From a virus, in IMG/VR virus record IMGVR_UViG_3300035670_000755, positions 1 to 34,797 of that record: a stretch of 34,797 nt of DNA. One strand, 5' to 3'. The translations under genes were made by a program, and so were the position numbers. The notes beneath the pieces were generated by a model, which searched no databases, was not told where the DNA came from, and worked only from the letters and a program-made list of their open reading frames with translations. This document shows, one piece after another, positions 8,489 through 23,508 of this stretch (the stretch's first letter is position 1; every line of letters starts with the position of its first letter).

Positions 8489-8522
8489 GCCCGGCGATAT
8501 GCACAGCCCGGCGGCATGGCCG

Positions 8523-8542
8523 CGCCCCGGACAGGTGTCCGG
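8523..8542. repeat. 20-bp palindrome, copy 1 of 3 (CCCCGGACA-GG-TGTCCGGGG)
   Basis: Perfect 9-bp arms around a 2-bp centre, 34 bp upstream of the chaperone start. Identical elements occur at 14949-14968 and 22607-22626. See the finding on a possible late-gene operator. Apart from the element and hairpin, the 188-bp gap 8489-8676 holds nothing else I recognise. Confidence 0.85.
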
Positions 8543-8562
8543 GGTATCGTGTCGTCATGGCG

Positions 8563-8601
8563 GGAAAAGGACCGGAAAGCGCGCCTTCGGCCTTCCGGTC
8601 C
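8563..8601 (-). terminator. Rho-independent terminator-like hairpin after the tail tube gene
   Basis: Arms GGACCGGAA (8567-8575) and TTCCGGTCC (8593-8601) form a 9-bp stem. Read on the minus strand the stem is followed by TTTT. It lies 76 bp past the tube stop codon and before the palindrome and chaperone start, so it could end or attenuate the head-to-tube transcript. Confidence 0.5.
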
Positions 8602-8676
8602 CTTACGCCAATCGGCCCTGCGGTGCAACGCCGTTGCCCCGGTGCTGTGGCCATGGCCAGGCCATGGCCCGGACGT

Positions 8677-9273
8677 TCACAGCGCCGCCTGGTGCTGCGC
8701 CACGATCGACCCGAACCGCACAGCCTCGCTCGCAGCAGCCAGATCTTCCAGCGCCTCGAAGGTCAGCTCGATGCCCGCAGGCTGCCCCTTGCGGAACACC
8801 ACCGACGGGCTTGCCGCCTGATAGCAGCGCGGCACCTGGTATTGTGCGGAAAATGCCGGATTGTACGGCGAAATCCCGCGCGCCAGCAGGGCATAGGTGG
8901 TTACCGACTTGCCCCGGCTCAGCCCCATGGTCTTCGTACCGATCGTGCCCGATCCTGCGGCAACCGTGGTCAGCGCATTGTTGTTCACCGCCAGGCGGTA
9001 CTGCTCCAGGCTCACGTCCAGCAGCGTCAGGCGGAACATCAGGTCTTCTTCGGGGCGGAACACCTTGACTGCGCCCACCGAACCGCCGGTGCGCACCTTG
9101 TTCAGCGTCTGGTTGTGCGTCACCGTCACGCCTTCCTCGTTCTGGCTGCGGTCCCCGCTCGTCCCCACCAGCACCCAGGGCGATGCTGGCGCGGCGTTCA
9201 CTGCCGGAAACGCGGTGCCCACCGGCGCCAGCCACAGGCTCAGCGGTTGACCGATGATTTCATAGGGTTCCAT
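8677..9273 (-). CDS. Major tail tube protein
   Basis: 198 aa. The start at ATG 9273 (MEPYEIIGQPLSLWLAPVG) is chosen because AGGAGG lies a few bases upstream; the in-frame ATG at 9294 would put that site inside the gene. Motifs such as SPWVLVGTSGDRSQNEEGVTV and QPAGIELTFEALED are typical of siphophage/GTA tube subunits. It sits between the tail terminator and the chaperones, the standard order. Expected to be the most abundant tail protein. Confidence 0.85.
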   Translation of the reverse strand: MEPYEIIGQPLSLWLAPVGTAFPAVNAAPASPWVLVGTSGDRSQNEEGVTVTHNQTLNKVRTGGSVGAVKVFRPEEDLMFRLTLLDVSLEQYRLAVNNNALTTVAAGSGTIGTKTMGLSRGKSVTTYALLARGISPYNPAFSAQYQVPRCYQAASPSVVFRKGQPAGIELTFEALEDLAAASEAVRFGSIVAQHQAAL

Positions 9274-9322
9274 CTCTACCTCCTCTTGCTGCACCCGCAG
9301 GTGCCTGATTGCCGCCAGTCGT

Positions 9323-9757
9323 TCAGGCGGAAACTTTCACCAGCGCGCTGCAAACCTGGAACGATCGCCAAGCGCGCGGCCAGTCGGTCACCGGTTCGCG
9401 CCCCGATGCGTATCCCCCGGCACTCTGCACCCAGTGCACCAGCGTTCCCGCCGCCACCTGGCTGCGCGCCCGGCGCAGCTTCAGCCCGCACAGATCGGCC
9501 AGCGCCGCCGCCTCGGCCGGGGTGCGCCCGAAGGCGTAAAGGTCCACGCGCTGCGTGTCGTATTCGGCAAAGCCCTGGCCATTGATCGCCACGCCGCCCG
9601 ATGCCTTGACCACGAACGCCGCGCGCGGCATCGCGGCGGTTTCGGCGGCGGGCAGCTCACCGCCGAAACCGCGTGTGCCCACCAGCGCCGCAATGGCGGC
9701 GTCGGCCAGCAGGATGGCCAGTACCGCGCCAACCGGATCGGCCGGAACGTCACTCAC
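9323..9757 (-). CDS. Tail terminator / completion protein (DUF3168-like)
   Basis: 144 aa. The start is taken as GTG 9757 (VSDVPADPVGAVLAILLAD) because GGGAGG lies 5 bases upstream; it overlaps the gp10-like gene by 8 bp. A longer frame from ATG 9853 would add an implausible Ala-rich leader over that gene. The segment FVVKASGGVAINGQGFAEYDTQRVDLYAFG fits DUF3168 tail completion proteins, which cap the head-proximal end of the tube. Confidence 0.75.
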   Translation of the reverse strand: MSDVPADPVGAVLAILLADAAIAALVGTRGFGGELPAAETAAMPRAAFVVKASGGVAINGQGFAEYDTQRVDLYAFGRTPAEAAALADLCGLKLRRARSQVAAGTLVHWVQSAGGYASGREPVTDWPRAWRSFQVCSALVKVSA

Positions 9758-10370
9758 TGCCGCCTCCCGATCCGCTCGCAGCGCCGCTGCCGCCAGCATC
9801 GCCACCGCCAGTATCGCTGCCGCCACTACGGCCACCAGAGCCACCGGGGCCAAGCTTGTCCCACGCCTTGGCGATATTCGCCGCCAGTTGCGGATACGTC
9901 ACATCGGCGGCAGGCCGCAGATACGGCCTTGCCGGGATCGTCACGCTCAGCCGCAGCAGGTAGTGCACTTCGCCGCTGTTTTCGTCGACCAGCATGGGCT
10001 GGCCTTTGAGGCTCTGCACAAAGGCAAGGCCGGTCAGGTTGCGCGGGCTGCCCGCGTTGCGCGCCAGCGGCGTCATCGGGATCGCCAGGTACTTCGTGTT
10101 CTTCGGCTCGATAACGCCGCCCAGTTCCTGAATCAGCGCATACTCCACGTCCTGCACGCCCCACGTGCCGCTCACGCCCTTCGCGTCGGGCGCGGCAAAT
10201 TGCACCACGTTGATCCCGCGCGTCAGGTTGCCGGTATCGTCCTTCCAGGCGTGGTTGCGGCGGGCATGGTTCACTGCCGCGCCCATGGTCCGGTTGACCC
10301 CTTCGATCTGCGCCGCCCGCATCCGCGCGGTTATGGCCTTGCCGTGCCAGACAAGCGATTTCTCGGCCAT
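9750..10370 (-). CDS. HK97 gp10-like neck / tail component
   Basis: 206 aa from ATG 10370. N-terminus MAEKSLVWHGKAITARM, then DDTGNLTRGINV and VEYALIQELGGVI; the last matches the conserved YA-x-x-x-E-x-G element of HK97 gp10-type proteins. The final ~35 residues are an unusual Gly/Ser-rich tail (GGSGGRSGGSDTGGGDAGG), probably flexible. It lies between head-tail stopper and terminator genes, as expected for this neck family. Confidence 0.75.
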   Translation of the reverse strand: MAEKSLVWHGKAITARMRAAQIEGVNRTMGAAVNHARRNHAWKDDTGNLTRGINVVQFAAPDAKGVSGTWGVQDVEYALIQELGGVIEPKNTKYLAIPMTPLARNAGSPRNLTGLAFVQSLKGQPMLVDENSGEVHYLLRLSVTIPARPYLRPAADVTYPQLAANIAKAWDKLGPGGSGGRSGGSDTGGGDAGGSGAASGSGGGSE

Positions 10371-10371
10371 A

Positions 10372-10719
10372 TCAGCCCACCCTCCGCAACGTGGCTTGAA
10401 AGTGCGTGTGCTTGAACTGCACCGGCCCTTCCACCACCAGCGGCCCGGCGATCAGCACCGCACCTTTGCGGTCCTTCACCGATGCCAGCCGGTCCCCCGG
10501 TTGCACGTCGGTGCCCAGCGCAAACAGCGCGCGGGTCACTTCGATCTGTGCCTGCTTCTGCCCGTCGATTACCTGCGTGATGGTATCGGACCAGACAAAG
10601 CACGCCACCGGATCGCCCAGCGCGGCAAACGCACCGGGTTCAGGCCCGTTCCATCCGTCGGCCCCGGTCGCCGTCGCGCGTTCGATCTGCGCCCGCATGG
10701 TCAGCCGGCCCGCGATCAC
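10372..10719 (-). CDS. Head-tail stopper / adaptor-like protein
   Basis: 115 aa from GTG 10719, in a GTGA overlap with the preceding gene. It is small and beta-rich, with MRAQIERATATG at the start and VQPGDRLASVKDRKG later, resembling head completion (stopper) proteins of SPP1 gp16 / HK97 type. One base separates it from the gp10-like gene. The family call rests on size, order and the N-terminal RAQIER-type motif. Confidence 0.6.
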   Translation of the reverse strand: MIAGRLTMRAQIERATATGADGWNGPEPGAFAALGDPVACFVWSDTITQVIDGQKQAQIEVTRALFALGTDVQPGDRLASVKDRKGAVLIAGPLVVEGPVQFKHTHFQATLRRVG

Positions 10720-11036
10720 AGATCACCGCCGATAACGTCACTGGCTACCTTGAGCGCCAGCCCGCCGATCACCTGGGAAAAATCCGCTTCGCTCATGGCC
10801 GGGCCAAGCACGGCTTCGCCCTGACAGGCCATGCACCGTGCGCCGCTATCCGAACGCAGGTAGGTGCGGCGCACGTGGCCCTGCGCACAGAACCAGTGCG
10901 GATCGTCGAACCAGGCATCCGGCAGGAACATGAACATCGCGTGCCCGCGCGCCTCGGCCGCCCGCGCCAGGTCCTCGCGCCACGCGATCAGCGCGATCAG
11001 CATCGGATCGGCAGCAGGGGTATCGGCGATGCTCAC
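10716..11036 (-). CDS. Small zinc-ribbon-like phage protein
   Basis: 106 aa from GTG 11036, chosen because AAGGAAG lies just upstream. Central segment: WREDLARAAEARGHAMFMF. A Cys/His set (WFCAQGH and ARCMACQG) could bind one zinc ion. It sits among connector genes, between a one-pass membrane protein and the stopper. I cannot name a function; a structural or assembly role is possible. Confidence 0.6.
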   Translation of the reverse strand: MSIADTPAADPMLIALIAWREDLARAAEARGHAMFMFLPDAWFDDPHWFCAQGHVRRTYLRSDSGARCMACQGEAVLGPAMSEADFSQVIGGLALKVASDVIGGDL

Positions 11037-11037
11037 G

Positions 11038-11190
11038 CTACTTCCTTGATGGGGGTGGTGGTGGAATTGTCGACGCTGGCGGCAGATCGGACTGGCGGGG
11101 ACGGTAGCTCCCGCGTCGTGATGCAGTGAACGGCGCCACCAGCACTCCAACGGCCAGGAGCACGCCCAACAGGATAAGATCGCAGTTCAT
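11038..11190 (-). CDS. Small one-pass membrane protein (50 aa)
   Basis: 50 aa (MNCDLILLGVLLAVGVLVAP...), too short for most gene callers. ATG 11190 overlaps the preceding stop (ATGA) and its TAG ends 1 base before the next GTG start, so it fits the operon exactly. Residues 4-21 form one hydrophobic helix; the tail is Pro/Arg-rich, ending in a run of five prolines. Function unknown. Confidence 0.6.
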   Translation of the reverse strand: MNCDLILLGVLLAVGVLVAPFTASRRGSYRPRQSDLPPASTIPPPPPSRK

Positions 11191-11455
11191 GCTCCATCAT
11201 CCCCGTCGCTATCGGCAATCGTGTCCCGCACCTGTGCTTCGGACCGATCGCGGGCCTGCCCGACCATATGCTTCACCATCTCCACGGCTTGTGAATAGGT
11301 AAGCAGGTTCGTACCGACCGGCTCGAAATGGAACTCATGGGGCGTTCCTGCGCACGAAACCCGGTTGAACGAGATGCCACAATCCGGGGCGAAATCGTGG
11401 GCAGTTTCCATGTCAGAAAGCGTTCGGCCATTGCCTTGATCTGTGCTTCCGTCAT
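11187..11455 (-). pseudogene. Conserved phage gene apparently split by a 1-bp frameshift
   Basis: The frame from ATG 11455 reads MTEAQIKAMAERFLTWKLP and then loses protein character. The -1 frame (from about 11411) reads HDFAPDCGISFNRVSC, then HFEPVGTNLLTYSQAVEMVKHMV, to a stop at 11187. Joined after WKLP, the two give one protein of about 89 aa. It resembles a short conserved alphaproteobacterial phage protein with the pattern ERFL-x-W-x-LP...PD-x-GI-x-F...EPxGTN. One extra C in the CTGCCCACG codons (11391-11399) would restore the frame. No Shine-Dalgarno precedes the ATG at 11411. This could be a real mutation, a sequence error or recoding. Confidence 0.55.
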
Positions 11456-11698
11456 CACGGCATTCTCCATTGGCGCAAGCGGATCGTGTGAACCGTTCGG
11501 TTCGAAAAACAGCCCATCCGGGCCGCAGGTTGCGCGCCCGGTCAACGTCCTGCGCCGGGATCGTTCCAGCGCCGCAGAAACATGCAGGCGGCTGCGCCAG
11601 GTGTTGAACGCGCCATCAAAGTGCCGCCCGATCGGGCGCACGCACGATCCGTTGTCGATGTGCGCGCAGGCGGCGCAGGCGGGCGGGGTGCCGGTCAT
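11273..11698 (-). CDS. Small Cys-rich protein, reading in frame into the next gene
   Basis: From ATG 11698 (ATGA overlap with the preceding stop) the frame gives about 80 residues of a Cys-rich protein: MTGTPPACAACAHIDNGSCV, then ALERSRRRTLTGRATCGPDG and LFFEP. Four or five Cys (ACAAC, GSC, ATC) could form a zinc site. After FFEP no stop occurs, and the frame runs on through MENAVMTEAQIKAMAERF, the start of the next gene, to a stop at 11273 (141 aa in total). Proteins of this kind normally end soon after the FxEP motif, so the native stop may have been lost. Confidence 0.5.
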   Translation of the reverse strand: MTGTPPACAACAHIDNGSCVRPIGRHFDGAFNTWRSRLHVSAALERSRRRTLTGRATCGPDGLFFEPNGSHDPLAPMENAVMTEAQIKAMAERFLTWKLPTISPRIVASRSTGFRAQERPMSSISSRSVRTCLPIHKPWRW

Positions 11699-11904
11699 GG
11701 CACGCTGTCCAGCAGGTCGCGCGCCAGCGTCCACACCGCCGCCGCCACTGCCGCCGCCAGCAGCACCGGCCAGATCAGCGCGATGACGGTGCCCAGCGCC
11801 ACGATCAGCACGCGCGCCGCCGGGGTTTCGCGGCGGATGTCGATCAGCAGCCACACGCCGGTCGCGGCAATGCCCAGGGCATAGATCGCCAACACCCAGC
11901 TCAT
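11695..11904 (-). CDS. Small two-helix membrane protein
   Basis: 69 aa (MSWVLAIYALGIAATGVWLL...). Two hydrophobic helices at about residues 2-22 and 31-60 flank a short DIRRETPAAR loop. It overlaps both neighbours by 4 bp (ATGA). It lies among connector genes, away from the main lysis cluster. It could be an extra holin-like or superinfection protein, but I cannot tell which. Confidence 0.65.
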   Translation of the reverse strand: MSWVLAIYALGIAATGVWLLIDIRRETPAARVLIVALGTVIALIWPVLLAAAVAAAVWTLARDLLDSVP

Positions 11905-12467
11905 GCCATCACCATCCCGCGCCGCTGCGCCAGCCCTTCGAAGATCTTTTCGCGGTCCGCGCTCATGTCGCCCGAAAGCGTGAAGCTGTAATCGCCCGCG
12001 CGTTCGGATCGCAGGCCACCGCGATAGGAAAGCTGCAGCTGGATCAACTGGATCGTCGCTTCGTCGCGCGCCGCCTGCTCGCCCTTCGGCGTGAACGTCA
12101 CCGAAACCAGCGGCGCCCAGAAGTTGCGGCCATGGGTGCCGCTCGACAGGCGCTGCAGGCTGCGCCCGCCATGCAGCACCCGGTAATCGTCCGCCGCCAG
12201 CACCACTTGCGCCGCTGCATCGCCGCTGTCGCCGGGATCGATCTCCACGATCTCCACAGCTTGCGTTTCGTCCAGCGGCCGCACCAGGCGCAGCGTCAGG
12301 CGATAGGCCGTGGCCGGATCGGCCGGATTGCCCAAAAGCACGGTCTGCGGCCCCGCCGCGCCGAACCGCATGTCCATCTCGTCGGCAATGCCGTCGATCA
12401 TGGCCTGCAGTTCGGCATCGGAAAGGTCGCTGCCTGTTCGCTCTTTCACCCGGTCGATCAGCGCCAT
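11901..12467 (-). CDS. Head-tail connector protein (gp6-like adaptor)
   Basis: 188 aa (MALIDRVKERTGSDLSDAEL...). The helical N-terminus with LSDAELQAMIDGIADEMD is typical of gp6/gp15-type adaptors that bind the portal ring. The C-terminal part is beta-rich and extends the usual ~100-aa family length. It follows the capsid and decoration genes, as in HK97-like neck modules. Confidence 0.65.
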   Translation of the reverse strand: MALIDRVKERTGSDLSDAELQAMIDGIADEMDMRFGAAGPQTVLLGNPADPATAYRLTLRLVRPLDETQAVEIVEIDPGDSGDAAAQVVLAADDYRVLHGGRSLQRLSSGTHGRNFWAPLVSVTFTPKGEQAARDEATIQLIQLQLSYRGGLRSERAGDYSFTLSGDMSADREKIFEGLAQRRGMVMA

Positions 12468-12470
12468 GGC

Positions 12471-12866
12471 TTACTGCCCCTGACCTTCGCCAGCGCCGCC
12501 AGCACCCGCGCCTTCGCCCTTGTCAGAGCCGGGCTGCTTTTCCTTGTTCTGGCCGGGGGTAGCTTCCTTGGTGGTAGCAGGCCCCTTTTCAGCCTTGGCC
12601 TGCGCTTTGGCAGCACGCTGCGCTGCCTTTTCCTTCGGCCCTGGCGGCGGTGCCACATGCGGCACTCTGTCATCGGTCTCGCCCGGATCGGCAGGTTCGA
12701 AGTCTGGCAGCGCGCCATTCTCCAGCCCGAACAGCTCGTGCGCATCTTCGGGGATTTCATCACCTGGCGCTGCATAGAGGAACGCGCCCTCGGTATCGCC
12801 TTCGGCCACCAGCTTCGTCTTGTCGGCGTTCAGGAACAGCCGCTGCCTTGCAATCACATTGCCCAT
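12471..12866 (-). CDS. Head-region protein with low-complexity C-terminus
   Basis: 131 aa from ATG 12866 (MGNVIARQRLFLNADKTKLV), with AAGG upstream. Residues 1-60 look folded (EGDTEGAFLYAAPGDEIPED); residues 75-131 are Lys/Ala/Pro/Gly-rich (KEKAAQRAAKAQAKAEKG) and likely disordered. Similar short proteins with a folded head and charged tail occur next to capsid genes in alphaproteobacterial phages. Function not recognised. Confidence 0.6.
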   Translation of the reverse strand: MGNVIARQRLFLNADKTKLVAEGDTEGAFLYAAPGDEIPEDAHELFGLENGALPDFEPADPGETDDRVPHVAPPPGPKEKAAQRAAKAQAKAEKGPATTKEATPGQNKEKQPGSDKGEGAGAGGAGEGQGQ

Positions 12867-12882
12867 GTCAGGGTGCCTTCCG

Positions 12883-13431
12883 TCAAAGCGTTTCATAAAG
12901 ATCGACGATCACCGCCGTCCCGTTCAGCGCGGAATTGAGCGTCACCGTGTTGCTTTCCAGCGCGCTGGCAGAAAACGCCACGCTCGGCGCGGTGCCTTCG
13001 CGCACTCCGCCCAGGAACGCCGCCACCACGCTGTTGCGCGATAGCTTGACCGGCAGGCCCAGCTTGGCCCCGGTCCCTACCCGCACGCGCTCGGTGGCGG
13101 CGCTGGCATAGGCAGGCAGCGTGATCTGGGTGACCGTCCTGAACGCCTTGTTGCCCGCAACCGTGCTGGCCCCGTTCAGCGCGATGGTTTCGGTAATTGC
13201 CTCGCCCCCGGCATTCGTGCCCACGATCACCACATTCCCCGTCACGTTGGCATCGTTGCCCTTCACGGTCAGGTTGCGCGGCACATCGGGCTGCGCGGCA
13301 AAGCTGGTGACCACTGTCGTGGCGCCGCTGGCCATGGCCGTGTCGGCCAGGACGCGGGTATCCGTGCCCAGCAGCGCCGTACCCAGCGCCGCCGACATGA
13401 TCCGCGAAAGCGAACCTGCAATCTTGCCCAT
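12883..13431 (-). CDS. Probable capsid decoration / head fibre-like protein
   Basis: 182 aa. Start at ATG 13431 (MGKIAGSLSRIMSAALG), preceded by AGGAGA. A long frame upstream adds a spurious leader. The body is Thr/Val/Asn/Ala-rich and beta-type (VTGNVVIVGTNAGGEAITET), typical of exposed trimeric or Ig-like capsid decoration proteins. It lies directly after the major capsid gene, 113 bp downstream. The decoration role is inferred from position and composition. Confidence 0.55.
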   Translation of the reverse strand: MGKIAGSLSRIMSAALGTALLGTDTRVLADTAMASGATTVVTSFAAQPDVPRNLTVKGNDANVTGNVVIVGTNAGGEAITETIALNGASTVAGNKAFRTVTQITLPAYASAATERVRVGTGAKLGLPVKLSRNSVVAAFLGGVREGTAPSVAFSASALESNTVTLNSALNGTAVIVDLYETL

Positions 13432-13490
13432 TGGAAATCTCCTGAATTGACCCGGCATGGACCGGCATGCGCGGGCCTCATCTGGCCTCT

Positions 13491-13520
13491 GCTGGCGCTG
13501 CCCCGGTCGGCAGCGCCAGC
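13491..13520 (-). terminator. 12-bp perfect hairpin after the capsid gene
   Basis: Arms GCTGGCGCTGCC (13491-13502) and GGCAGCGCCAGC (13509-13520) around a 6-base loop, 24 bp past the capsid stop. No U-run follows. It may stabilise the capsid mRNA 3' end or cause partial termination so that the capsid is expressed above downstream genes. Confidence 0.5.
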
Positions 13521-13544
13521 GTCCTGGCCGCTCTCGCGCGGGTA

Positions 13545-14879
13545 TTAGAGATTAGTGACCGAACAGAACGCGGCCGGGCGCATCCACACCATCGCGGCGC
13601 GGGCATCGGCGCGCACCGTGCGCTTGCCTTCGGTGAACTGCGTGCCGACATAGCCGACCGCAACTTCCACGCCGCGCCGCTCGAACAGGCTGCACCAGGC
13701 GGGCTGGAACGAACCGGTATAACCGGTCCCGGCGCTGTCGGCGTCGTTCTGCACGACTGGCAGGCCCCACAGGCGTTCCGGGCCGCTTTCGGCGGGCGAA
13801 CCCCAGATGTAGATGCCGTCCGCCGTGCGCAACAGGCGCACTGACTGCCAGTCGGTCGGGTGCATCACGTGGTGCGTCGGGATCGCACGTCCGACAGTGC
13901 GGATCTTGGTCATCGCCTTGTAGAAGGCGTCGGGAACCGGATCGGCGCCCTTGGCCTGGGTCTGGATGCCGCTCACGTTCTTCAGGCCGCGCAGGTTGGG
14001 CGAAGAACCATCCCCGATCAGCACCTGGCGATCCAGCCGCTGGCGCACGCCAAAGGTCAGACGGCTGTTGATGTAGCCCTGCATCATGGCCACGTCTTCC
14101 AGCTGCTCGTCCGTCACCGGCACGCTGTCGGTGATCTTGGCAACCGACGAAGTGCGCTCGGTGAACGCGAAGGTGCTTTCGGCATAAGCCGCGCCTTCCG
14201 CCGCTTCCGCCGCAGCGTGCGTGCGGGTGGTTTCTTCCATGTACTTGATTGCCGCCTGGGTGGTCGGGAACATCGGGATGATGTCCAGCAGCTGGATTGG
14301 CCGGGTCACCCCTTCGGTAAAGCCCGGCAGGCGCACGCTCTCCGGCGCATACCCCGCGCTGGTGGTCATCAGCGTCTTGGCGCGCAGCGTGGCAAACTGT
14401 TCGCCCTTCACCAGCATGTCCGACAGCAGCAGGTCCGGGAAGGAAAGATCGATGCCGCCCGGCGATCCGCGCTGGGCATATTCGGCATAACCCTTGGCCC
14501 CGGCGATCAGCTCGCCCAGCGACTTCACACGCTCGTTTTCGGTGCGGTAATTGCCCTTGCCGCCAAACGCGCCGCCGCCCGGCAACGGGAACCCGCGCAC
14601 GCCCTGCTCGCGCGCTGCATGCTCCTGCGCGGCCTTTTCGGCCTGCTCCAGCAGGTCGGCCTTTTCGCCCAGCTCATTGAGTTCGGCGTTCGCCTGGCGA
14701 ACCTTTTCCGCCACGGCCACCGAACCCTTCACGTCGGCGCCCAGGCAGGTCACGCGGTTGAAATCGTACTGCTTGCTGCCATCGTCGCTCACCACGATCG
14801 CCTCGGCAAACACCTTGCCAAGCTCGTCCTGCTTCGCAGCCATCTTTTCGCGCAGCTGCATCAAATTGAGATCCGCCAT
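13545..14879 (-). CDS. Major capsid protein, HK97 fold
   Basis: 444 aa. Start ATG 14879 (MADLNLMQLREKMAAKQDEL) with AGGAG 8 bases upstream. Residues 1-100 are a coiled-coil delta/scaffold domain ending in a Gly-rich linker (FPLPGGGAFGGKGNYRTE), the expected protease target. The mature body has HK97-family features: ERVKSLGELIAGAKGYAEY, the E-loop/P-domain segments, and HHVMHPTDWQSVRLLRTADG near the C-terminus. The protease and portal genes precede it. It is separated from the protease by 347 bp that contain one of the repeated palindromes. Confidence 0.93.
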   Translation of the reverse strand: MADLNLMQLREKMAAKQDELGKVFAEAIVVSDDGSKQYDFNRVTCLGADVKGSVAVAEKVRQANAELNELGEKADLLEQAEKAAQEHAAREQGVRGFPLPGGGAFGGKGNYRTENERVKSLGELIAGAKGYAEYAQRGSPGGIDLSFPDLLLSDMLVKGEQFATLRAKTLMTTSAGYAPESVRLPGFTEGVTRPIQLLDIIPMFPTTQAAIKYMEETTRTHAAAEAAEGAAYAESTFAFTERTSSVAKITDSVPVTDEQLEDVAMMQGYINSRLTFGVRQRLDRQVLIGDGSSPNLRGLKNVSGIQTQAKGADPVPDAFYKAMTKIRTVGRAIPTHHVMHPTDWQSVRLLRTADGIYIWGSPAESGPERLWGLPVVQNDADSAGTGYTGSFQPAWCSLFERRGVEVAVGYVGTQFTEGKRTVRADARAAMVWMRPAAFCSVTNL

Positions 14880-14948
14880 GCCCGTCACTCCTCAGGTCCA
14901 AAGGCCAAAATTGCCGGGCCATGTGGCAGGAGCGCAGCGCAGCTATCG

Positions 14949-14968
14949 CCCCGGACAGGTGTCCGGGG
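14949..14968. repeat. 20-bp palindrome, copy 2 of 3 (CCCCGGACA-GG-TGTCCGGGG)
   Basis: Identical to the elements at 8523-8542 and 22607-22626, and 69 bp upstream of the capsid start. The surrounding gap (14880-15226) has no convincing gene. It holds this element, a weak minus-strand -35/-10 pair (TTGTCA at 15059-15064, TTAGAC at 15036-15041, 17-bp spacing) and the hairpin at 15177-15206. Confidence 0.85.
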
Positions 14969-15176
14969 CCGGTGATGGGCGGCGGGGTGGTGAAAGACGA
15001 TCGGTGCGGCGGGGTGCGGCGCGTCCGGGCTACCGGTCTAACCGATCAGCACCGCAGATGACAACCGTTGCTGCGTGCGCGGGAAAATGTCCGCCGCACA
15101 TGCCGCCGCAATCGCCCCACAGGGCGGTTTAAGAAGGGATAAGAACGCAGGCGGCGGGTTTTTGCCGGGGGAAGGG

Positions 15177-15206
15177 CCGTCAGGCGCGCGTGCGGCGTCC
15201 TGACGG
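15177..15206 (-). terminator. Hairpin after the protease gene
   Basis: Arms CCGTCAGG (15177-15184) and CCTGACGG (15199-15206) with a 14-base GC-rich loop, 20 bp past the protease stop. No good U-run follows on the minus strand, so only weak support for termination. Confidence 0.35.
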
Positions 15207-15226
15207 CAAAATGAAGCAAGCCCTTT

Positions 15227-15937
15227 TCAGGGTTTCAGATGCTTGCGCGAAAGCTGGTGCATGTACCCGGCCAGCGCCTGTTCGGCCGCCAGCGCATCCG
15301 CCTGGTCGGGCGTGCCAGCAGCCTTGCGCAGGACCGTGCCGATCGCGCCGTGGATTTCGGCCAGTTGCTTAAGGCCGGTGGCGGAAAGCGCAGCCGGGTC
15401 ATCCCCGATCGCCACGGCCATTTCGGTCAGGTTGCCGATCAGCGGCGCGAACGCCGCCGCCTTCAGCGTGGCCGATTTCATCGAAAGCGTGCCCGTGCCC
15501 ACTCCGGCGCCGCGCAGCACCGGCGATATTTCATCCACGTCCAGCTTCTTCAGTACCTGCACATGCTCGCCGTCGCGCTGCTCGTAAACGCCGTCCAGCA
15601 CGCGATAGCCATACGACCATTCCTGCACCGGCAGCCCCTTGGACAGATCGAACTTCAGCGTGGAATGCCATTCGCGCCCGGTCTGCGTTTCAAGGTTCAG
15701 GTGCAGATCGGCCATGCACCAGTCCCCTTCCTCGTACAGCCACGCCTTGCCGAACGGCATGGCGCGGCGGTCGTGCGCGGGGATCATGTTCACCCACTGC
15801 CCGCCACCCGGCTTCCAGGCAAAGGCGCCGGGCGCATAGGTGTCGCCATCGCTGTCCACGGCCGAAAGCTGGGCAATGCGGGCGCGGCCGGTTCCGGCCT
15901 CGTCCATCTTCTCGATCTGCAGGCCCTTGATCTTCAT
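15227..15937 (-). CDS. Prohead maturation protease (S78 family, HK97 type)
   Basis: 236 aa from ATG 15937 with GAGGAG upstream. Motifs in order: DSDGDTYAPGAF (28-39), MIPAHDRRAMPFGKAW with the candidate catalytic His55, LPVQEWSYGYRV with the candidate Ser108, and DVDEISPVLRGAG (133-144), which carries the acidic residue. These are hallmark elements of HK97-type prohead proteases. It should cleave the capsid delta domain during maturation. It lies 4 bp after the portal gene. Confidence 0.92.
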   Translation of the reverse strand: MKIKGLQIEKMDEAGTGRARIAQLSAVDSDGDTYAPGAFAWKPGGGQWVNMIPAHDRRAMPFGKAWLYEEGDWCMADLHLNLETQTGREWHSTLKFDLSKGLPVQEWSYGYRVLDGVYEQRDGEHVQVLKKLDVDEISPVLRGAGVGTGTLSMKSATLKAAAFAPLIGNLTEMAVAIGDDPAALSATGLKQLAEIHGAIGTVLRKAAGTPDQADALAAEQALAGYMHQLSRKHLKP

Positions 15938-15941
15938 CGTC

Positions 15942-18089
15942 TCACTCCTCGAAATGCGGCGCGAAGCTCAGCGTCCCGTTGGGATGCTCCTCGTCGGCCA
16001 TGATCAGTGCCGCCTCGATCGAAACGATCGAACCGTTGCGCGCCATATGCTCTTCCAGCGATCGGCCCGGCCCCAGCAGCCCGTCATAGACCACCAGCGA
16101 TTCCACCCCGGCCGCGCGCGCGCGCTCGATCGTCGCCACGTTCTGGGCATAGGCGGTTTCGGTGCGTGCGATCCGGCGCGACCGGTCCAGCGGCGTCGCG
16201 CTTGGCCCGGCTTCGACAAAATCCGATATCCGCTGCGCCAGCCGGATCGCGCCTTCGCCCGCCGCACGGCCTTCGGCCAGCGCCTCGAACAGCGCATCGC
16301 GCGCCTGCCCCTCCAGATCGACCAGGCCAGCCCTCCGCCCGCCCGCAGCCAGGATCGAACGCGCCACCACGTCGGGCAGCGATGCGCCCAGTCCCGCACG
16401 TTCGGCGGCGGCATCGCTGGCACTGGCCACGTCCAGGTAATGCGCGGCATACAGCGCGCGCAGGTCGCCGTTCCAGCGTTCGATGCCCAGCTTGTCCAGG
16501 ATCATCGCCGCCAGCAGTTCGTCGGACTTTCGGCCTATGGCCTTGCCGGTCAGCGTCGGGTCCTTTTCCAGCAGGGCGAGCGCCTCGTCGCGCGCCAGCG
16601 TGCCCAGCGCCGCAAAGAAGGGCATAAGGCGCTTCTCAGCTGCAGCTTGCAGCCCGCTTGCCTGGCGCTGCAACTCCAGCGCATAGGCGTAGCCGCGCCG
16701 GTAGGCGTCCTGGCTCGCGCGCCGTCCGCTGCCCGCGCCATGATCGTGCGCCGGTCCCTTCAGCCGTTTCGGCGGCAGCGCCCCGTCCAGCCCCGGCACG
16801 GGTGGATTGCCTGGCCCGGAAAGGCGCGCGCCCGCTTCGGCCACCGGCACTTCCAGCACCGCGATCTTGCGCAGATAGAAGTCGGCCTTCGAAAGCGGCT
16901 CCTCGCCCACCACGCGCAGGGCCTGGTGGTGGCTGATCAGCCCGCCCTCGAACTGCTTGATCGCGCGGTCGCTGCGCTTGTCCTCGTCTTCCTGCAGCGC
17001 GATCACGTCGCCGGTGTCCCACACCACGCGTGCGCCGTTGAGGTCACCCCATGCGCCCGCCAGCGATCGCTGCACTTCGTCGGCCAGCATGCGGGCCATC
17101 GGCAGAACGCCGTTGTTCCAGGCCAGCTTGCGCAGTTCCTCCATCGTCGCGCCAACCTTGGTGGATTGCAGCCCTGCGCCAAAGCCGACGACTGCTGCCG
17201 GAATGCCCAGGCACGCGCACACCCGCTCTTCGGCCACGTCGCGGCCTTCGCTCATGTTCATCTGCTGCGGGTTGAAGCCATAGGCTTGCACGTCGGTCGG
17301 GGCGCCCATCACCAGCGGCCCGCCACGGTTGTCCCCGCCGAACGTTTCGGTGAACCACGCCTTGGTTGCCTCCACGTCTTCGGGCGCTGGCATCGCGCCG
17401 CCTTTCGGGCTGATGACCACGCCAGGCACGCCCATGTTGCGCAGGAGCGAGGCGACGAAGTTGCTGCTTTCCAGATCGATGAAGATCTCGCGGATCACGC
17501 CGTCCAGCGGCGAAAGGCCCATGCGCAGGTTGCGCGGATTGATGCCATGGCGGAAATGCACCACGTCTTCCGGCGGAATGTGGAATGTCTCGCCAGCGCC
17601 GCCGCCGGGCCGGTAGTGATAGTGCCGGATGAACTCGCTGCCATCCTGCGGCCAGCACGGCTCCATGCACCAGGTCGGCACAAACCAGAGCTGGGCAGGG
17701 CGGCCCAGCGGGTTGCGCACGATCAGCCAATAGGCATTGCCGGTGATCGCAAACGAAAGGACCGTGGCCATCCACAGCGCGATATCGCCATAGAAAGGGT
17801 TCGGTGTCTGGATCAGCGCCAGCATCGGATGGTTCGGCACATCGCTGTCGTTGCCCCGCGCATCCTTGCGCCGCACGCTCAGCACCGCCTCTGGCAGCGC
17901 ACGGGCAATCCACATCGCAGGCGCGGTCACGACAGAGGAATCGAGGCAGTCGCCCACTTCCTTGCGATAATCGAACCGGGTGCGCCGCAGCAGGCCGGAA
18001 AACATCGACTGCCGTCCGATATGGCGCATCCCGCCCGCAGGCGGCGCCCCCTTCGTGGAAATCGCCCGCAGGCGCGCAAGCCAGTTCAT
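15942..18089 (-). CDS. Portal protein fused to a Mu gpF-like head morphogenesis domain
   Basis: 715 aa from ATG 18089 (ATGA overlap with the terminase). Residues ~40-420 are an HK97-type portal: FAITGNAYWLIVRNPLGRPAQLW, LGIPAAVVGFGAGLQ and QFEGGLISHHQALRVVGEEPL. A Pro/Gly linker and a helical middle follow. The C-terminal ~150 residues have RIARTETAYAQN (640-651) and end with EEHPNGTLSF, the pattern of Mu gpF / SPP1 gp7 minor head proteins. The F-type domain lacks the usual HPNC cysteine (HPNG). Portal and F proteins are normally separate, so this is a fusion. It forms the DNA entry ring, with the F part probably inside the head. Confidence 0.88.
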   Translation of the reverse strand: MNWLARLRAISTKGAPPAGGMRHIGRQSMFSGLLRRTRFDYRKEVGDCLDSSVVTAPAMWIARALPEAVLSVRRKDARGNDSDVPNHPMLALIQTPNPFYGDIALWMATVLSFAITGNAYWLIVRNPLGRPAQLWFVPTWCMEPCWPQDGSEFIRHYHYRPGGGAGETFHIPPEDVVHFRHGINPRNLRMGLSPLDGVIREIFIDLESSNFVASLLRNMGVPGVVISPKGGAMPAPEDVEATKAWFTETFGGDNRGGPLVMGAPTDVQAYGFNPQQMNMSEGRDVAEERVCACLGIPAAVVGFGAGLQSTKVGATMEELRKLAWNNGVLPMARMLADEVQRSLAGAWGDLNGARVVWDTGDVIALQEDEDKRSDRAIKQFEGGLISHHQALRVVGEEPLSKADFYLRKIAVLEVPVAEAGARLSGPGNPPVPGLDGALPPKRLKGPAHDHGAGSGRRASQDAYRRGYAYALELQRQASGLQAAAEKRLMPFFAALGTLARDEALALLEKDPTLTGKAIGRKSDELLAAMILDKLGIERWNGDLRALYAAHYLDVASASDAAAERAGLGASLPDVVARSILAAGGRRAGLVDLEGQARDALFEALAEGRAAGEGAIRLAQRISDFVEAGPSATPLDRSRRIARTETAYAQNVATIERARAAGVESLVVYDGLLGPGRSLEEHMARNGSIVSIEAALIMADEEHPNGTLSFAPHFEE

Positions 18090-19486
18090 GCCGGAATCCA
18101 GTCATCGTCAAGAGTGCGGACAGCGCCAGGACGCCTGGGTTCGTTCTGCGGCCGCCACTGCGCGCTATTGCCGCTGGCTGCCGCATGGATCGCCAGCGCC
18201 AGCGCCCAGAACCGGTCGGAGTGCCCGTCTTTCGTGCGCTCGGCGGTAAAGCGGATGTTGCCCGCTGCGGTCGTCGTCTTGGTCACCGCGCGCAGATCGG
18301 CGCGGATGGCCTTGTCGTACGGGATGCGAAGGGCGCGATCTTCCATCTTCGCCCGCAGCGGATAGGCCAGCTCTTCCTTTACCCGGCCGGAAAAGTTCAC
18401 GCCTTCCACGCGGTATGTGCCGAACGCCTTCTGCGCATCGTCGGTCCAGCCAATGCCAAGACCCGTGCTATCGATGCACACCCGCTGACAACGCTGAAAC
18501 CATGGCCACAGGATCTTCTCCTGGTCGCCCTTGGTCATCGCCTTCATCGTTTCAATATGGCGGGTATACAGCACGTCGCCCAGCAGCTCGACCACCCACA
18601 GCACGGTCAGGTCCTGCTTGCGGCCGATATCGACCCCGGCATACAGCGTGCCGCCTTCGATTCGTGTCCAGTCCGTTCCGGCCGGGTACTCCGCCGATGC
18701 GATCAGGTCATATTCCAGGAATGCAGCGTCATCGTCGGCAGGCTGGCACATGTACTCCTGCAGGAAGCTTTCCTCGTCCGCGCAGCCGGATTTGACGAAG
18801 TCGTAGTAATCCGCCTCGGTCATGTCCTGCTGCTCGGCATCGGCGGGCAGGGACTGCTGGAGCTTGTACAGGAACCCCTGATCCAGCGCGTCCTGCAGCG
18901 TCACGGTGTGCAGGCTGATCTTCTTCGGGTTGCCCTGTTCCCTGATCTCGCGGACCAGCCCGTTGAAGAAGTTGTGGCTGCCGCGGTGGGTGCTGATCAG
19001 TTCCATATTGCCGCCCCAGGTGATCCCCGGATAGGCAATGGCCCACAGCTTGCGCGGATCGGGGTGCAGGGCAAACTCGTCCAGGATGCGCCCGCCGCGT
19101 TTGCCCGCCTGGGCATCGGGATTGGAACTCATCGAATTGATGCGCTTGCCCGTGGCAAAGCTCAGCACATAGGCAGTCTGCCGCGTGCGCTCGTCGACGA
19201 TGCGCTCGCCCAGGTCCTGCGCTGCAAGATCCAGCACGCCGGTAAAAAGCTTGCAGTCTTCCAGGAACAGCCGTGCCTGGATGTCATCGCGGCTACTCAC
19301 CCACTGATCGTGCCGCGCGCCTTCCTTGCCGGTGCGCGCCACGGCAGCATAGGCGGTGGACCACGAGATACCGATCTGGCGGCTCTTCTCCATCAGCTTC
19401 AGCCGCGAATCGTCGCCGATCCACTTGCCCTGGTAAGGCAGGAAGATCGCGCCCGGATTGGCGGGGATGTTGCGAGCCGCTCCCAT
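18086..19486 (-). CDS. Terminase large subunit, Mu gp28-like
   Basis: 466 aa from ATG 19486 (TGATG overlap with the small subunit). An atypical Walker A, EKSRQIGISWS (33-43), is followed by GGRILDEFAL, with Walker B Asp-Glu at 136-137. C-terminal nuclease acidic residues appear in YAGVDIGRKQDL (Asp286) and VCIDSTGLGIGW (Asp339), and a late HSDRFWALALAIHA segment completes the domain. It packages phage DNA, presumably headful from inserted copies as in Mu. It sits right after the gp27-like gene, as in Mu-like phages. Confidence 0.92.
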   Translation of the reverse strand: MGAARNIPANPGAIFLPYQGKWIGDDSRLKLMEKSRQIGISWSTAYAAVARTGKEGARHDQWVSSRDDIQARLFLEDCKLFTGVLDLAAQDLGERIVDERTRQTAYVLSFATGKRINSMSSNPDAQAGKRGGRILDEFALHPDPRKLWAIAYPGITWGGNMELISTHRGSHNFFNGLVREIREQGNPKKISLHTVTLQDALDQGFLYKLQQSLPADAEQQDMTEADYYDFVKSGCADEESFLQEYMCQPADDDAAFLEYDLIASAEYPAGTDWTRIEGGTLYAGVDIGRKQDLTVLWVVELLGDVLYTRHIETMKAMTKGDQEKILWPWFQRCQRVCIDSTGLGIGWTDDAQKAFGTYRVEGVNFSGRVKEELAYPLRAKMEDRALRIPYDKAIRADLRAVTKTTTAAGNIRFTAERTKDGHSDRFWALALAIHAAASGNSAQWRPQNEPRRPGAVRTLDDDWIPA

Positions 19487-20091
19487 CAGCCGACGCCAAG
19501 CGCACGGTTGATCTCGGCCAGCGTCTCGGCCGAAACGCCCGCCTTCTTCACCTTCTCGGAAACCTCTTCGGCGGCCCTGGCCATCTTCTCGGCCACCCGC
19601 GCCTCCAGCTGGCGGCGGTATTCGTCCGATCCCTTCTGCGCGCTCACCGCCGATTGCAGCGCGCGGCTCAGCTCCATGATGCCCTTGGTCGAAACCTCGC
19701 CGCCTTCCAGCAGCTGGAACATCGCCGTCTTCAGCATTTCGGCCACGGCCACCGTCACCTGATCCGGCCCATCGGTCCCCAGCGAAGTCACCAGTTCGCC
19801 CGACATGCGCTGCACTTCGTCGAGCTTTCTAAACTGGATCGCCTTGCGCACGGCATAGCGCGACCACGCGCCTTTCGAGATCGGCGGCAGGCCCTTGTCG
19901 GCCAGTCGCTCGTTGAACTCGGCCAGGATCACCGTCTGCGGCAGCTTGCGTTCGCGCAGCTGGTCCAGCGCCCAGATCACATCCGGCTCGGCTTCGTCGG
20001 GCAACTGGTCGATCGACGATAGCCGGCCCCGGCCTTCCCGGCGGCCCTGCGCGGCATCGTCCGCGTTGCGGGGATCTTCGGCGCCCGTCAC
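19486..20091 (-). CDS. Terminase small subunit, Mu gp27-like (DUF3486)
   Basis: 201 aa from GTG 20091. Residues 20-100 (GRGRLSSIDQLPDE, then ILAEFNERLADKGLPPISKG and RYAVRKA) are the DUF3486 core, followed by a helical C-terminus. It should recognise phage DNA for packaging together with the overlapping large subunit. A clear paralogue of residues 20-101 is fused to a Bro-N domain in the early region (32423-33223). Confidence 0.88.
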   Translation of the reverse strand: MTGAEDPRNADDAAQGRREGRGRLSSIDQLPDEAEPDVIWALDQLRERKLPQTVILAEFNERLADKGLPPISKGAWSRYAVRKAIQFRKLDEVQRMSGELVTSLGTDGPDQVTVAVAEMLKTAMFQLLEGGEVSTKGIMELSRALQSAVSAQKGSDEYRRQLEARVAEKMARAAEEVSEKVKKAGVSAETLAEINRALGVG

Positions 20092-20092
20092 G

Positions 20093-20383
20093 TCACAGGG
20101 CCTCGGCGGGCGGGGTGATCCCTTCGATCACCACCCGCTCGTCCAGGAAATCACGCCCCAGCGGCAGGATTTTCGCCACCAGCACGGTTCCCGCCGGTTG
20201 CAGCTCGATCGTGCCCAGCGCCTCCAGCTTGCGCAGTTGGGTGGCAATCCAGTCGCGGTCGCGCTTGATGCCATAAACATCCAGCGTGCGGCGGATGAGC
20301 AGCTCGTTCAGCCGCCCGTCGACCTGACGCTTCAGTTCGCGCAGGATGTGCAACCGCGCATCGGGTGCAATGAAGTCGCTCAT
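20093..20383 (-). CDS. Winged-HTH phage protein (VpaChn25_0724-like)
   Basis: 96 aa from ATG 20383 with GGAG upstream. FIAPDARLHILRELKRQVDGRLNE, the RDRDWIATQLRKLEALGTIEL recognition region and a wing match the small winged-helix family found just before gp27 in Mu-like phages. The role is unknown; DNA binding in packaging or late control is plausible. Confidence 0.75.
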   Translation of the reverse strand: MSDFIAPDARLHILRELKRQVDGRLNELLIRRTLDVYGIKRDRDWIATQLRKLEALGTIELQPAGTVLVAKILPLGRDFLDERVVIEGITPPAEAL

Positions 20384-20393
20384 ATGCCGCTCC

Positions 20394-20735
20394 TCACTTT
20401 CCCAGCCCCTTCTCGATCAGCAACCGTTCGATGCGGTCGATCGACCGGGCAGACCTCTCCATCAGATCGCGCTGGGCGCCCGTGCGCTCCTCGATCAGCA
20501 TCTCGATCCGCTGCAGGTCTTTTGCCGTGGCGGCATCGCGCATCAGATCCGCCACTTCGTTTTCAAGATGCCCGACCCGCTGCGACAGTGTGGAAACATT
20601 GCCCGAAAGACGGCTTACTTTCTTGCCCAGCGTGCCGGTGCCTTCCGGGTTCGCGGCCCCGCCGCGCCACACCACCGTTCCGATCGACGCCACGATGAAG
20701 ATTATGATGGCCCATTCCAGCCAACTGCCGGTCAT
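20394..20735 (-). CDS. DUF2730-like membrane coiled-coil protein (Mu gp25-like)
   Basis: 113 aa. One N-terminal membrane helix (WLEWAIIIFIVASIGTVVW, 5-23), then a charged coiled coil (RLSGNVSTLSQRVGHLENEV). Such proteins lie between lysis and terminase genes in Mu-like phages. Overlaps the holin gene by 4 bp (ATGA). The function of the family is not settled. Confidence 0.75.
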   Translation of the reverse strand: MTGSWLEWAIIIFIVASIGTVVWRGGAANPEGTGTLGKKVSRLSGNVSTLSQRVGHLENEVADLMRDAATAKDLQRIEMLIEERTGAQRDLMERSARSIDRIERLLIEKGLGK

Positions 20736-21241
20736 TGTTCGTTCCCCGTATTGCTGGAAGGTGCCTTGCTGGCGCTATTACCGTTTCCGGTTTCGCTGCC
20801 GGTCTGACTGCCTGGGCCGGTTCCGGGCGCATGGCCGTGCGCCGCCGCGCCGATCAGCCGCCGGATCGCGCCTTCGATCTCGCGCCCGGCAAACTCGATC
20901 AGCGAATAGCCGGAAAATCCCAGCCCGATGGAAACCACGAAGGCCAGCAGCGGGCCGGGCCGCGATTGCGCCACCCATACCACCGCCACGATCAGCATGA
21001 TCGCGGTTACCACCGCAAAACGCGGCCAGCCCACCTGCATCTCGCGCCTTGGGGCCAGTGGCCGTGCCAGCAGCACACCCGCCACCGCCAGCGCGCCCTG
21101 CAATGCAGGCACGGACAGCGCATCGATCTGGATCATCAGCCCGCCGCCGCCGCGCGGCTCGCCCAGCGCCGCTGCCGCAAGCGAAAACGCCCACGGGCCA
21201 TAGAACGCCGCCAGGTGCTTGAGGGATACCGGCTCGATCAT
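20732..21241 (-). CDS. Probable holin (multi-pass membrane protein)
   Basis: 169 aa with three or four membrane helices: about 9-26, 48-62 (LQGALAVAGVLLARPL), 75-90 (FAVVTAIMLIVAVVWV) and 96-114. The C-terminus is a Gly/Ser/Asn-rich tail (GTGPGSQTGSETGNGNSAS). It lies inside the lysis cluster between spanins and DUF2730, overlapping both by 4 bp. A holin role is inferred from topology and place; it is longer than most holins. Confidence 0.65.
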   Translation of the reverse strand: MIEPVSLKHLAAFYGPWAFSLAAAALGEPRGGGGLMIQIDALSVPALQGALAVAGVLLARPLAPRREMQVGWPRFAVVTAIMLIVAVVWVAQSRPGPLLAFVVSIGLGFSGYSLIEFAGREIEGAIRRLIGAAAHGHAPGTGPGSQTGSETGNGNSASKAPSSNTGNEQ

Positions 21242-21873
21242 GGCACCGCCGACGTTTGCGGGGACAGGTCCAGCGCGGCTGCGGCTTCTGCGGCATCGAT
21301 CAGTTTGTCCAGCTGGTGCGCCTGCTCGCTGGCAATCAACCGCTCGGTGATTGTCATCGCCCCTGCGCAGCCTGTTCCAGCGGCGCCAGAAAATCCTTGA
21401 TCGCTGGCCGCTTCAGCAGTTCCGGCGCTGGCCGGAACGGAGCCGGGCAGACCAGCCGCAGCGGTGCTGCGGGTATCGGTTCGGGCGGTGCTTTCCCGCA
21501 ACTGACCAGCAAGAAGCTCGGCACGGCGGCGCAGGCCAGCCAGATCGGATTGCAGCGCACTCACGTTCTCCCGGTTGATCGCATCGTGCGCAGCAGCCAC
21601 GCGCACCAGATTGCCCTTTTGGCGGATTGCCGCCTGCCGCGCCGCCGCACGCACATTGTCCACTGTACGCTGGCACGCCTTGCCCTTGGCCGTCAGGCTG
21701 CTGATTTCAGCGCGAAGCGCAGGAATGGTTTTCCAGCGGTCATGGGCCGTTGCGAACAACAGCAGCGCGATCATGGCGTGGCGGATATCCGAAAATACCC
21801 ATGACAACGCCTTATGCACAGGCTTCCACAGCCCGCCTGCCAGCTTCAGGAAAAGGGCAATAGCGAGGTTCAT
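21238..21873 (-). CDS. i-spanin (Rz-like)
   Basis: 211 aa. An N-terminal hydrophobic anchor (HAMIALLLFATAHD, ~32-45) is followed by a long helical coiled-coil region (RAEISSLTAKGKACQRTVDN to about residue 135) and an Ala-rich tail. This is the layout of inner-membrane spanins. Its partner, a lipoprotein, is encoded inside this gene in another frame (21354-21560). The pair disrupts the outer membrane at lysis. Confidence 0.75.
   Translation of the reverse strand: MNLAIALFLKLAGGLWKPVHKALSWVFSDIRHAMIALLLFATAHDRWKTIPALRAEISSLTAKGKACQRTVDNVRAAARQAAIRQKGNLVRVAAAHDAINRENVSALQSDLAGLRRRAELLAGQLRESTARTDTRSTAAAGLPGSVPASAGTAEAASDQGFSGAAGTGCAGAMTITERLIASEQAHQLDKLIDAAEAAAALDLSPQTSAVP
21354..21560 (-). CDS. 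o-spanin lipoprotein (Rz1-like), embedded in the i-spanin gene
   Basis: 68 aa from GTG 21560, with its own GGGAG 7 bases upstream. The signal peptide MRCNPIWLACAAVPSFLLVSC has a lipobox LVSC with Cys21 as the lipidation site. The mature part is Pro-rich (GKAPPEPIPAAPLRLVCPAP), typical of Rz1. The gene lies entirely within the i-spanin gene in another frame, a known Rz/Rz1 arrangement, so both strands of evidence agree. Confidence 0.8.
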   Translation of the reverse strand: MRCNPIWLACAAVPSFLLVSCGKAPPEPIPAAPLRLVCPAPFRPAPELLKRPAIKDFLAPLEQAAQGR

Positions 21874-22571
21874 GCGAAGCCCTTCCCAAGCCGATCTGCC
21901 CGGTTCAGCCAGCCCCGCAGGAACCGCTGTTGCGAAGGGCTGTTGCGCGCGATGGCGCGGTATCGTTCGCGCACGGCATCACGATACGCGGTGGTCAGCG
22001 CGGGCAGGCCAAGGCCGGGCCAGTGCATCACCTCCAGCATGGCATTGCGCGTGGCATTGCCGATGATGCCGTCAACCTTCAGCAGGCCGATCCGCGCCTG
22101 GCTGGCGGGCATCAGCAGAATGCAGGTGTTGATCGCGCGCTGCAGCAGCTTGCGCGCGGCCACCAGCCCGCCATTCACCGCCTGGTCGAACAGCATTTCG
22201 CCAATGGGAACAGGGAATGTTTCGGCCTGCAACCGCAGCCAGAAGCAGCGGTGATACAGGAATATCGCATCGCCCACGGTCAGCTTGCGGATATCCGCAC
22301 CGTCGATATCGCCATCCATGTCAATATCGAAATCGGCCAGTCCGTCGCCGTCCGCGTCGAATGCGCCCTCCGCTTTCAGAAAGCGCAGCGATATGCCGAA
22401 CTTGGTCTCGCCGCCCCGGTCGACCGGGTCGTTTACATGCCCGCCTTCGACGCCCAGGACATGCAGCACCGCCTTGCGGTAACGCAGGCTGTAAGCCTGC
22501 ACCACGATCTCGACCGGCGTGTTTTCGGGCCTTGCTGGCGTGTTTTCGGGAAGGTTCGCGGCGCTGTCCAT
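21870..22571 (-). CDS. Endolysin, glycoside hydrolase 108 (muramidase) with EF-hand-like insert
   Basis: 233 aa from ATG 22571. LHVLGVEGGHVNDPVDRGGE (36-55), with candidate catalytic Glu42, followed by TKFGIS, is the GH108 signature. Unusually, residues 72-93 (DADGDGLADFDIDMDGDIDG) form tandem DxDxDG calcium-loop-like motifs where family members have a short loop. A peptidoglycan-binding-like GLLKVDGIIGNATRNAML follows near residue 170. No classic signal peptide is seen, so holin release is likely. Longer starts at 22604 and 22631 are open but would run through the repeated palindrome. No start has a strong ribosome site, so the N-terminus is uncertain. Confidence 0.8.
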   Translation of the reverse strand: MDSAANLPENTPARPENTPVEIVVQAYSLRYRKAVLHVLGVEGGHVNDPVDRGGETKFGISLRFLKAEGAFDADGDGLADFDIDMDGDIDGADIRKLTVGDAIFLYHRCFWLRLQAETFPVPIGEMLFDQAVNGGLVAARKLLQRAINTCILLMPASQARIGLLKVDGIIGNATRNAMLEVMHWPGLGLPALTTAYRDAVRERYRAIARNSPSQQRFLRGWLNRADRLGKGFA

Positions 22572-22606
22572 GGGCCGCTTGTGGCCGTTGCAGCGCCTGT
22601 GCATCG

Positions 22607-22626
22607 CCCCGGACACCTGTCCGGGG
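22607..22626. repeat. 20-bp palindrome, copy 3 of 3 (CCCCGGACA-CC-TGTCCGGGG)
   Basis: The same palindrome as at 8523 and 14949 (read in the opposite sense at its 2-bp centre), in the gap between the Mor/C-like activator and the endolysin, 35 bp upstream of the chosen endolysin start. Confidence 0.85.
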
Positions 22627-22641
22627 TACATTGCCGGGGTG

Positions 22642-23028: not shown

Positions 23029-23030
23029 GA

Positions 23031-23372: not shown

Positions 23373-23373
23373 G

Positions 23374-23508
23374 TCAGAATGCCCCCCAGCAATAGCCGAT
23401 CACGCCCGATACGATCGCGGTGATGATCAGGTCGCGGATGATCACGCCGATGGCACGCCACCGCGCGGCGATGCGCCAGTCGTCGTCGTTAAGAGGCCGA
23501 TGCGGCAT
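23374..23508 (-). CDS. Small membrane protein (44 aa)
   Basis: 44 aa (MPHRPLNDDDWRIAARWRAI then GVIIRDLIITAIVSGVIGYC). GGGAGG sits 5 bases upstream of ATG 23508, an excellent ribosome site. A charged N-terminus is followed by one membrane helix (~21-43). The stop lies 1 bp from the next start. Function unknown. Confidence 0.65.
   Translation of the reverse strand: MPHRPLNDDDWRIAARWRAIGVIIRDLIITAIVSGVIGYCWGAF

Follow-up and report, generated by a model that had tools for sequence, protein, structure and literature searches.

Palindromes before the late gene blocks of a Mu-like phage as putative operators of its Mor/C-type activator

The viral stretch IMGVR_UViG_3300035670_000755 (34,797 nucleotides (nt), analysed whole and hereafter termed the window) carries three copies of a 20-base pair (bp) dyad with the arms CCCCGGACA-NN-TGTCCGGGG, each ahead of a block of late genes. 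What reads these repeated palindromes? Our analysis indicates that they are very probably the operators of the only Mor/C-type activator detected in this phage, encoded just before the third copy. A first-pass annotation had proposed a late activator's operator, with a stoperator-like or host-factor site as the alternative. The former is supported by the same positions but phage-specific sequence of the dyads in relatives, by co-occurrence of motif and mor gene, by asymmetric conservation together with a fixed -10-like element, and by covariation with Mor residue 114; the latter is disfavoured, since the dyad varies with Mor and there is one site per late block.

The dyads, the late blocks and the activator gene

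The pattern CCCCGGACANNTGTCCGGGG has exactly three exact matches in the window, against a mean of 0.00 in 100 shuffles of it, and allowing up to three mismatches added no further copy over the whole window. As the late genes all lie on the minus strand, upstream means towards higher coordinates. In this direction, dyad 1, the proposed operator of the tail block, spans 8525..8544, 36 bp before the ATG of the tail-chaperone-position gene (8488); dyad 2, assigned to the head block, spans 14949..14968, 69 bp before the capsid ATG (14879); and dyad 3, assigned to the lysis block, spans 22607..22626, 15 nt past the mor stop and 35 bp before the endolysin ATG (22571). The first-pass annotation described identical 20-bp palindromes 34, 69 and 35 bp before their genes. 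The three copies and the latter two distances stand, but copy 1 had been placed at 8523-8542, its gap is 36 bp, and identity extends only to the 18 arm bases, with copy 3 having CC in the middle instead of the GG (plus strand) of the otherwise identical copies 1 and 2. An invariant CG adjoins the arms in gene direction at all three dyads, thus the true repeated unit is 22 bp, CCCCGGACA-NN-TGTCCGGGGCG. All three are non-coding, as claimed, and lie in gaps between annotated genes.

The phage is of the transposable (Mu-like) type with siphophage-like tail genes, and every recognised gene is on the minus strand: transposases A and B, the Mor/C-type activator, endolysin, small and large terminase, portal, protease, capsid, head-tail proteins, major tail protein, the genes in tail-chaperone and tape-measure position, distal tail and fibre. 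Read in gene direction, one dyad each opens the lysis, head and tail blocks, in agreement with the earlier view that they mark the starts of late blocks. The respective first genes encode the endolysin (Glyco_hydro_108 and PG_binding_3; 21870..22571), the major capsid protein (13545..14879) and a 198-residue protein (7892..8488) that lies between the major tail and tape-measure genes and has no PHROG match.

The activator gene (22642..23028, minus strand), correctly located directly before copy 3 by the first-pass annotation, encodes 128 residues and is the proposed source of the dyad binder. It matches phrog_836 with E=2.4e-20, a family that Mu Mor and Mu C likewise match, and hhalign against Mu Mor/C gave 70.7% over 72 C-terminal columns. 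An AlphaFold2 model with a mean predicted local distance difference test score of 86 places helices at residues 78-91, 96-103 and 107-122, which form a predicted C-terminal helix-turn-helix; helix-turn-helix profile matches were obtained in relatives. The last helix of the model (residues 109-124, including R110, T111, R113 and R114; codons 22657..22704, minus strand) is the putative recognition helix.

Further inverted repeats occur in the window. A second perfect palindrome, GGCCATGGCCAGGCCATGGCC, lies at 8649-8669 between dyad 1 and the major tail gene as a single, unexplained copy. Long inverted repeats (ATGCTTCTGCAATTTTTGCAGAAGCAT and others) are found in the early and end region at 31318-31344, 33047-33073, 34240-34260 and 34383-34407; repressor sites, terminators or transposase-end features are candidates for them.

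Operator sequence and activator across phages

We collected 70 related loci from IMG/VR using the capsid as query; a search for related loci with a broad alignment as query yielded no conserved stretch. In the closest relatives, dyads occupy the same three places, namely between mor and the endolysin gene, before the capsid gene and before the tail chaperone gene, and they are alike within one phage and unlike between phages: CCCCGGAACGCGTTCCGGGG is present three times in L084, CCGCGCGCCCGCGCGG three times in L078 and CACCCGCGCCGCCGCGCGGGTG three times in L089, and L068 has dyads of the CCACGGACAGGTGTCCGGGG type. Such unlike sequences at kept places, matched within each genome, are the trace of a trans-acting DNA-binding protein. 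Ochrobactrum phage POA1180 also has its own dyad, CCTGACANTGTCAGG, in exactly three copies: before the protease gene, before the tail sheath gene, and between the late activator and endolysin genes. Scored purely as a 16-mer match, the dyad downstream of mor recurred at 14/16 in 28 of 42 loci and in 159 of 840 random regions, a poor separation. The feature that stands out is a partner dyad 7-9 kb downstream in 29 of the 42 loci, the significance of which is overstated by the nominal p value because the loci are related. Among more distant loci (L341, L342, L343, L345 and L347), GCCCG-N6-CGGGC dyads lie directly behind a Mor-like gene with an ETGVEKL-type helix, and a comparable dyad follows about 8 kb further on, forming a further operator class.

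Scanning IMG/VR with the motif alone retrieved 63 stretches, and a scrambled palindrome of the same composition retrieved 23. A Mor profile was then run against the complete contigs, those of the controls included. Mor was found on 22 of 50 motif contigs and on none of the 23 scrambled-palindrome contigs (Fisher 5.5e-5), the motif-contig counts being not fully independent because the profile was partly built from Mor on such contigs. The identity of these proteins to the window Mor goes down to 29%, and where dyad and mor share a stretch the dyad often lies 3-53 nt 3' of the mor stop. A scan for a rare third dyad class, CCCGGTCANNTGACCGGG, designed as a test of R110, gave Mor on 2 of 27 contigs, namely the source phage L067 and one weak match; being so poor in Mor, it provides no test of R110 and serves as a second negative control.

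Listing the recognition helices against the dyads paired ..RGVRK.. with GGAAC..GTTCC and ..R[T/S/A]xRR.. with GGACA..TGTCC. This rule, suggested by five GGAAC cases, was tested by an IMG/VR scan for CCCGGAACNNGTTCCGGG in which the protein was ignored; Mor was present on 12 of 35 contigs, mostly with the dyad 8-54 nt behind mor. Of 38 phages compared, 25/25 with GGACA..TGTCC and 0/13 with GGAAC..GTTCC have Arg at residue 114 (Fisher 1.8e-10), where for several phages the class-defining dyad lies at another late promoter of the contig and not behind mor. Residue 114 is the only alignment column that fully separates the two dyad classes. Lys occupies this position in nine of the 13 GGAAC phages, and Met, Leu, Gln or Tyr in the others. 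Residue 111 is Thr in 19/25 GGACA phages versus Gly in 9/13 GGAAC phages, while R110 is invariant and R113 nearly so. All eight out-of-sample GGAAC cases lack Arg114, with the exact RGVRK in only two. When the recognition helix was left out of the Mor tree, the dyad class switched at least 11 times in the best topology, six of these being forced by well-supported branches, and the classes are no more clustered than shuffled labels. Residue 114 tracks the dyad class in 6/6 independent pairs on supported branches (sign test p=0.031).

Promoter architecture and competing explanations

We aligned 30 sites drawn from 14 loci of this phage group. CCGGGG-CG, which comprises the downstream half and the two bases after it, is identical in 30/30, with a variable upstream half. 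In the lysis and tail-chaperone dyads of L067 the upstream half is broken, leaving 3/5 and 2/5 core pairs, respectively. All three window sites have a CCGGA-N6-TCCGG core (5-6-5). A second element, CATA, CACA or ATTA, lies 24-27 nt past the dyad, and the within-phage agreement of the three otherwise unrelated sites reaches 0.61, 0.61 and 0.91 at offsets 24, 25 and 27, compared with mostly 0.15-0.4 nearby. The corresponding -10-like sequences, all on the minus strand, are CACAAG for the lysis promoter (22578..22583, 24-29 nt past the dyad and kept in position in relatives) and, from the site alignment, CACATG for the head promoter (14920..14925) and CATATC for the tail promoter (8496..8501). 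No sigma-70 consensus promoter-like site was found in 5000-24900. An invariant downstream half, a fixed -10-like element and a breakable upstream half point to a directional promoter and not a hairpin; the site looks like a promoter with a dyad instead of a -35 element, followed by a weak -10. With -11 assigned to the conserved A at offset 25, the dyad centre would be at about -45.5.

We infer physical binding, activation and start sites. In the putative model, a Mor dimer would bind each CCGGA-N6-TCCGG dyad, which lies about 44-46 bp ahead of the predicted start and would take the place of a -35 element. Bound Mor would let host RNA polymerase start at the weak CATA/CACA element 24-29 nt past the dyad, and one early-made protein would thereby switch on all three late blocks, for lysis, head and tail, at the same time.

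In the seven phages examined, the dyad is followed by the endolysin ATG at 35-37 nt, and in five of these by the tail-chaperone ATG at 37 nt; both start codons come 10-13 nt after the -10-like element begins. No Shine-Dalgarno-like sequence was found within 20 nt before these ATGs. This absence is shared by some other genes of the window and is by itself a weak sign; the constant spacing is a better indication. In the window, the endolysin ATG falls on the predicted +1 and the tail-chaperone ATG 1 nt off it, so that, provided the -10 assignment holds, the mRNAs for lysis and for the tail chaperone are probably leaderless. The capsid gene is leadered, with a Shine-Dalgarno GAGGAG at 14888-14893. 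In L075, L084 and L086 the tail-chaperone gene starts at a greater distance from the dyad and is preceded by a plausible ribosome site. A broader reading, in which we place a little more belief than doubt, is that the Mor/C activators of transposable phages recognize their operators through a simple code that has been re-tuned repeatedly. Residue 114 would set the inner bases (Arg for GGACA..TGTCC, Lys or others for GGAAC..GTTCC), and two neighbouring arginines would hold the shared CCGGA half. As a result of the re-tuning, related phages would be transcriptionally insulated from one another. In the present group, transcription of the lysis and tail operons would begin at the start codon itself, making key late mRNAs leaderless.

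Several points weigh against the dyads being Mor operators. The window activator scores 24.0 bits for Pfam Mor, just under the cut-off of 24.9, so its membership by score is borderline. A Foldseek search of the Mor model against PDB gave no significant match, and 1RR7 (Mu Mor, present in PDB) is absent among the matches listed. Other deposited entries for Mu Mor and C are 9L0Y, 9L0X and 9VW8. About half of the motif contigs have no Mor, partly as they are fragments and partly as they belong to a different phage type with dyad arrays. Moreover, the -10-like element is weak and shifts by 1 nt or more, and the presumed dyad centre does not coincide exactly with that of Mu.

Operators of a different phage regulator, a repressor or stoperator-like protein that shuts the late blocks in the prophage, would also lie near promoters, and some phages without detected Mor hold clustered GGACANNTGTCC. 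We regard this explanation as very improbable: the site tracks Mor and not merely the phage, with residue 114 in accord in 38/38 and an uninformative Mor phylogeny; there is exactly one site per late block and none elsewhere; and the downstream half keeps a fixed geometry to the -10-like element. The clustered GGACANNTGTCC copies, up to six within about 115 bp, were seen in L006, L012, L015, L019, L030, L038, L041, L053 and L055, where no Mor was found, and are probably operators of an unrelated regulator.

Equally improbable are RNA hairpins acting as intrinsic terminators between gene blocks. The perfect 9-bp stem fits, copy 3 follows a stop codon at 15 nt, and one POA1180 copy has a T-rich tail. 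Furthermore, the same 20-mer occurs in many bacterial genomes (L160-L239), often Oscillospiraceae, mostly followed by a T run and once per fetched stretch; the bare sequence is thus also a common terminator stem, and these bacterial copies are probably just that. However, the window dyads have no T run after the stem, and in L067 the stem is broken with the downstream half kept (-7.7 and -3.8 kcal/mol at the lysis and tail-chaperone sites versus -16.1 kcal/mol in the window). Nor does a hairpin account for dyads that agree inside a phage yet differ from one phage to the next, for the fixed -10-like element or for the residue 114 link. An Rfam search gave no match. The terminator reading was rejected on the missing T run in the window and the broken stems of L067.

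A host transcription factor's site, suggested by the motif's presence in many bacterial genomes, is the least credible candidate, as those copies are mostly T-tailed hairpins with a Mor-like gene on just two of the stretches examined, divergence in step with phage Mor is not expected of it, and Pseudooceanicola spongiae (4.4 Mb; the one bacterium so examined, which carries a related Mor gene) has exactly two copies, 7.8 kb apart and one directly behind mor, which is not the scatter that the first-pass annotation had named as contrary evidence.

Comparison with known systems

The C-dependent late promoters of Mu (Plys, PI, PP and Pmom) have an upstream dyad and poor -10 and -35 elements, and stand before the lysis, head and tail blocks (PMC4287176, PMC4461284). 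As in Mu, the Mor/C-type activator is encoded just before the lysis block, with a putative promoter ahead of each of the three late blocks; the dyad is centred at -43.5 in Mu (PMC4287176) and, by our reckoning, near -45.5 here. In contrast to Mu, which uses Mor and then C, one Mor/C-type protein was detected; the dyad is GC-rich and near-perfect; no mom promoter was seen; and the lysis and tail mRNAs are predicted to be leaderless. At Pm, the 16-bp site of Mu Mor replaces the -35 element and consists of two 5-bp inverted repeats around a G/C-rich 6-bp spacer (PMC4390567), a layout shared by the 5-N6-5 dyad here. However, the target of Mu Mor is a single middle promoter, from which C is expressed, whereas the present protein appears to act directly on the late blocks.

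The arrangement is also reminiscent of POA1180, in which gp51, a phrog_836 activator, precedes the endolysin gene and three dyads precede the lysis, head and sheath genes, although its dyad is CCTGA-N5-TCAGG, its recognition helix differs and its tail is contractile; the searched text of its description (PMC5492332) makes no mention of these sites. Sinorhizobium phages StopSmel and Aussie share the gene order, a 64-67% identical capsid and a Mor regulator before the lysozyme gene, but have a VSTVRRW-type Mor and imperfect dyads of other sequence. A limited literature check found no prior description of the dyad sites reported here.

The proposed assignment would give a readable operator to a widespread, little-studied phage activator family, so that in many Mu-like phages whose hosts are GC-rich bacteria the late promoters could be called from sequence alone. 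The perfect residue-114 split makes Mor/C specificity, mainly studied in Mu so far, experimentally addressable, and a leaderless endolysin mRNA, if true, would make lysis depend on leaderless initiation by the host. By analogy, the system appears to work like the Mu C-dependent late promoters, with a single detected activator, a GC-rich operator and probable leaderless late mRNAs as its differences.

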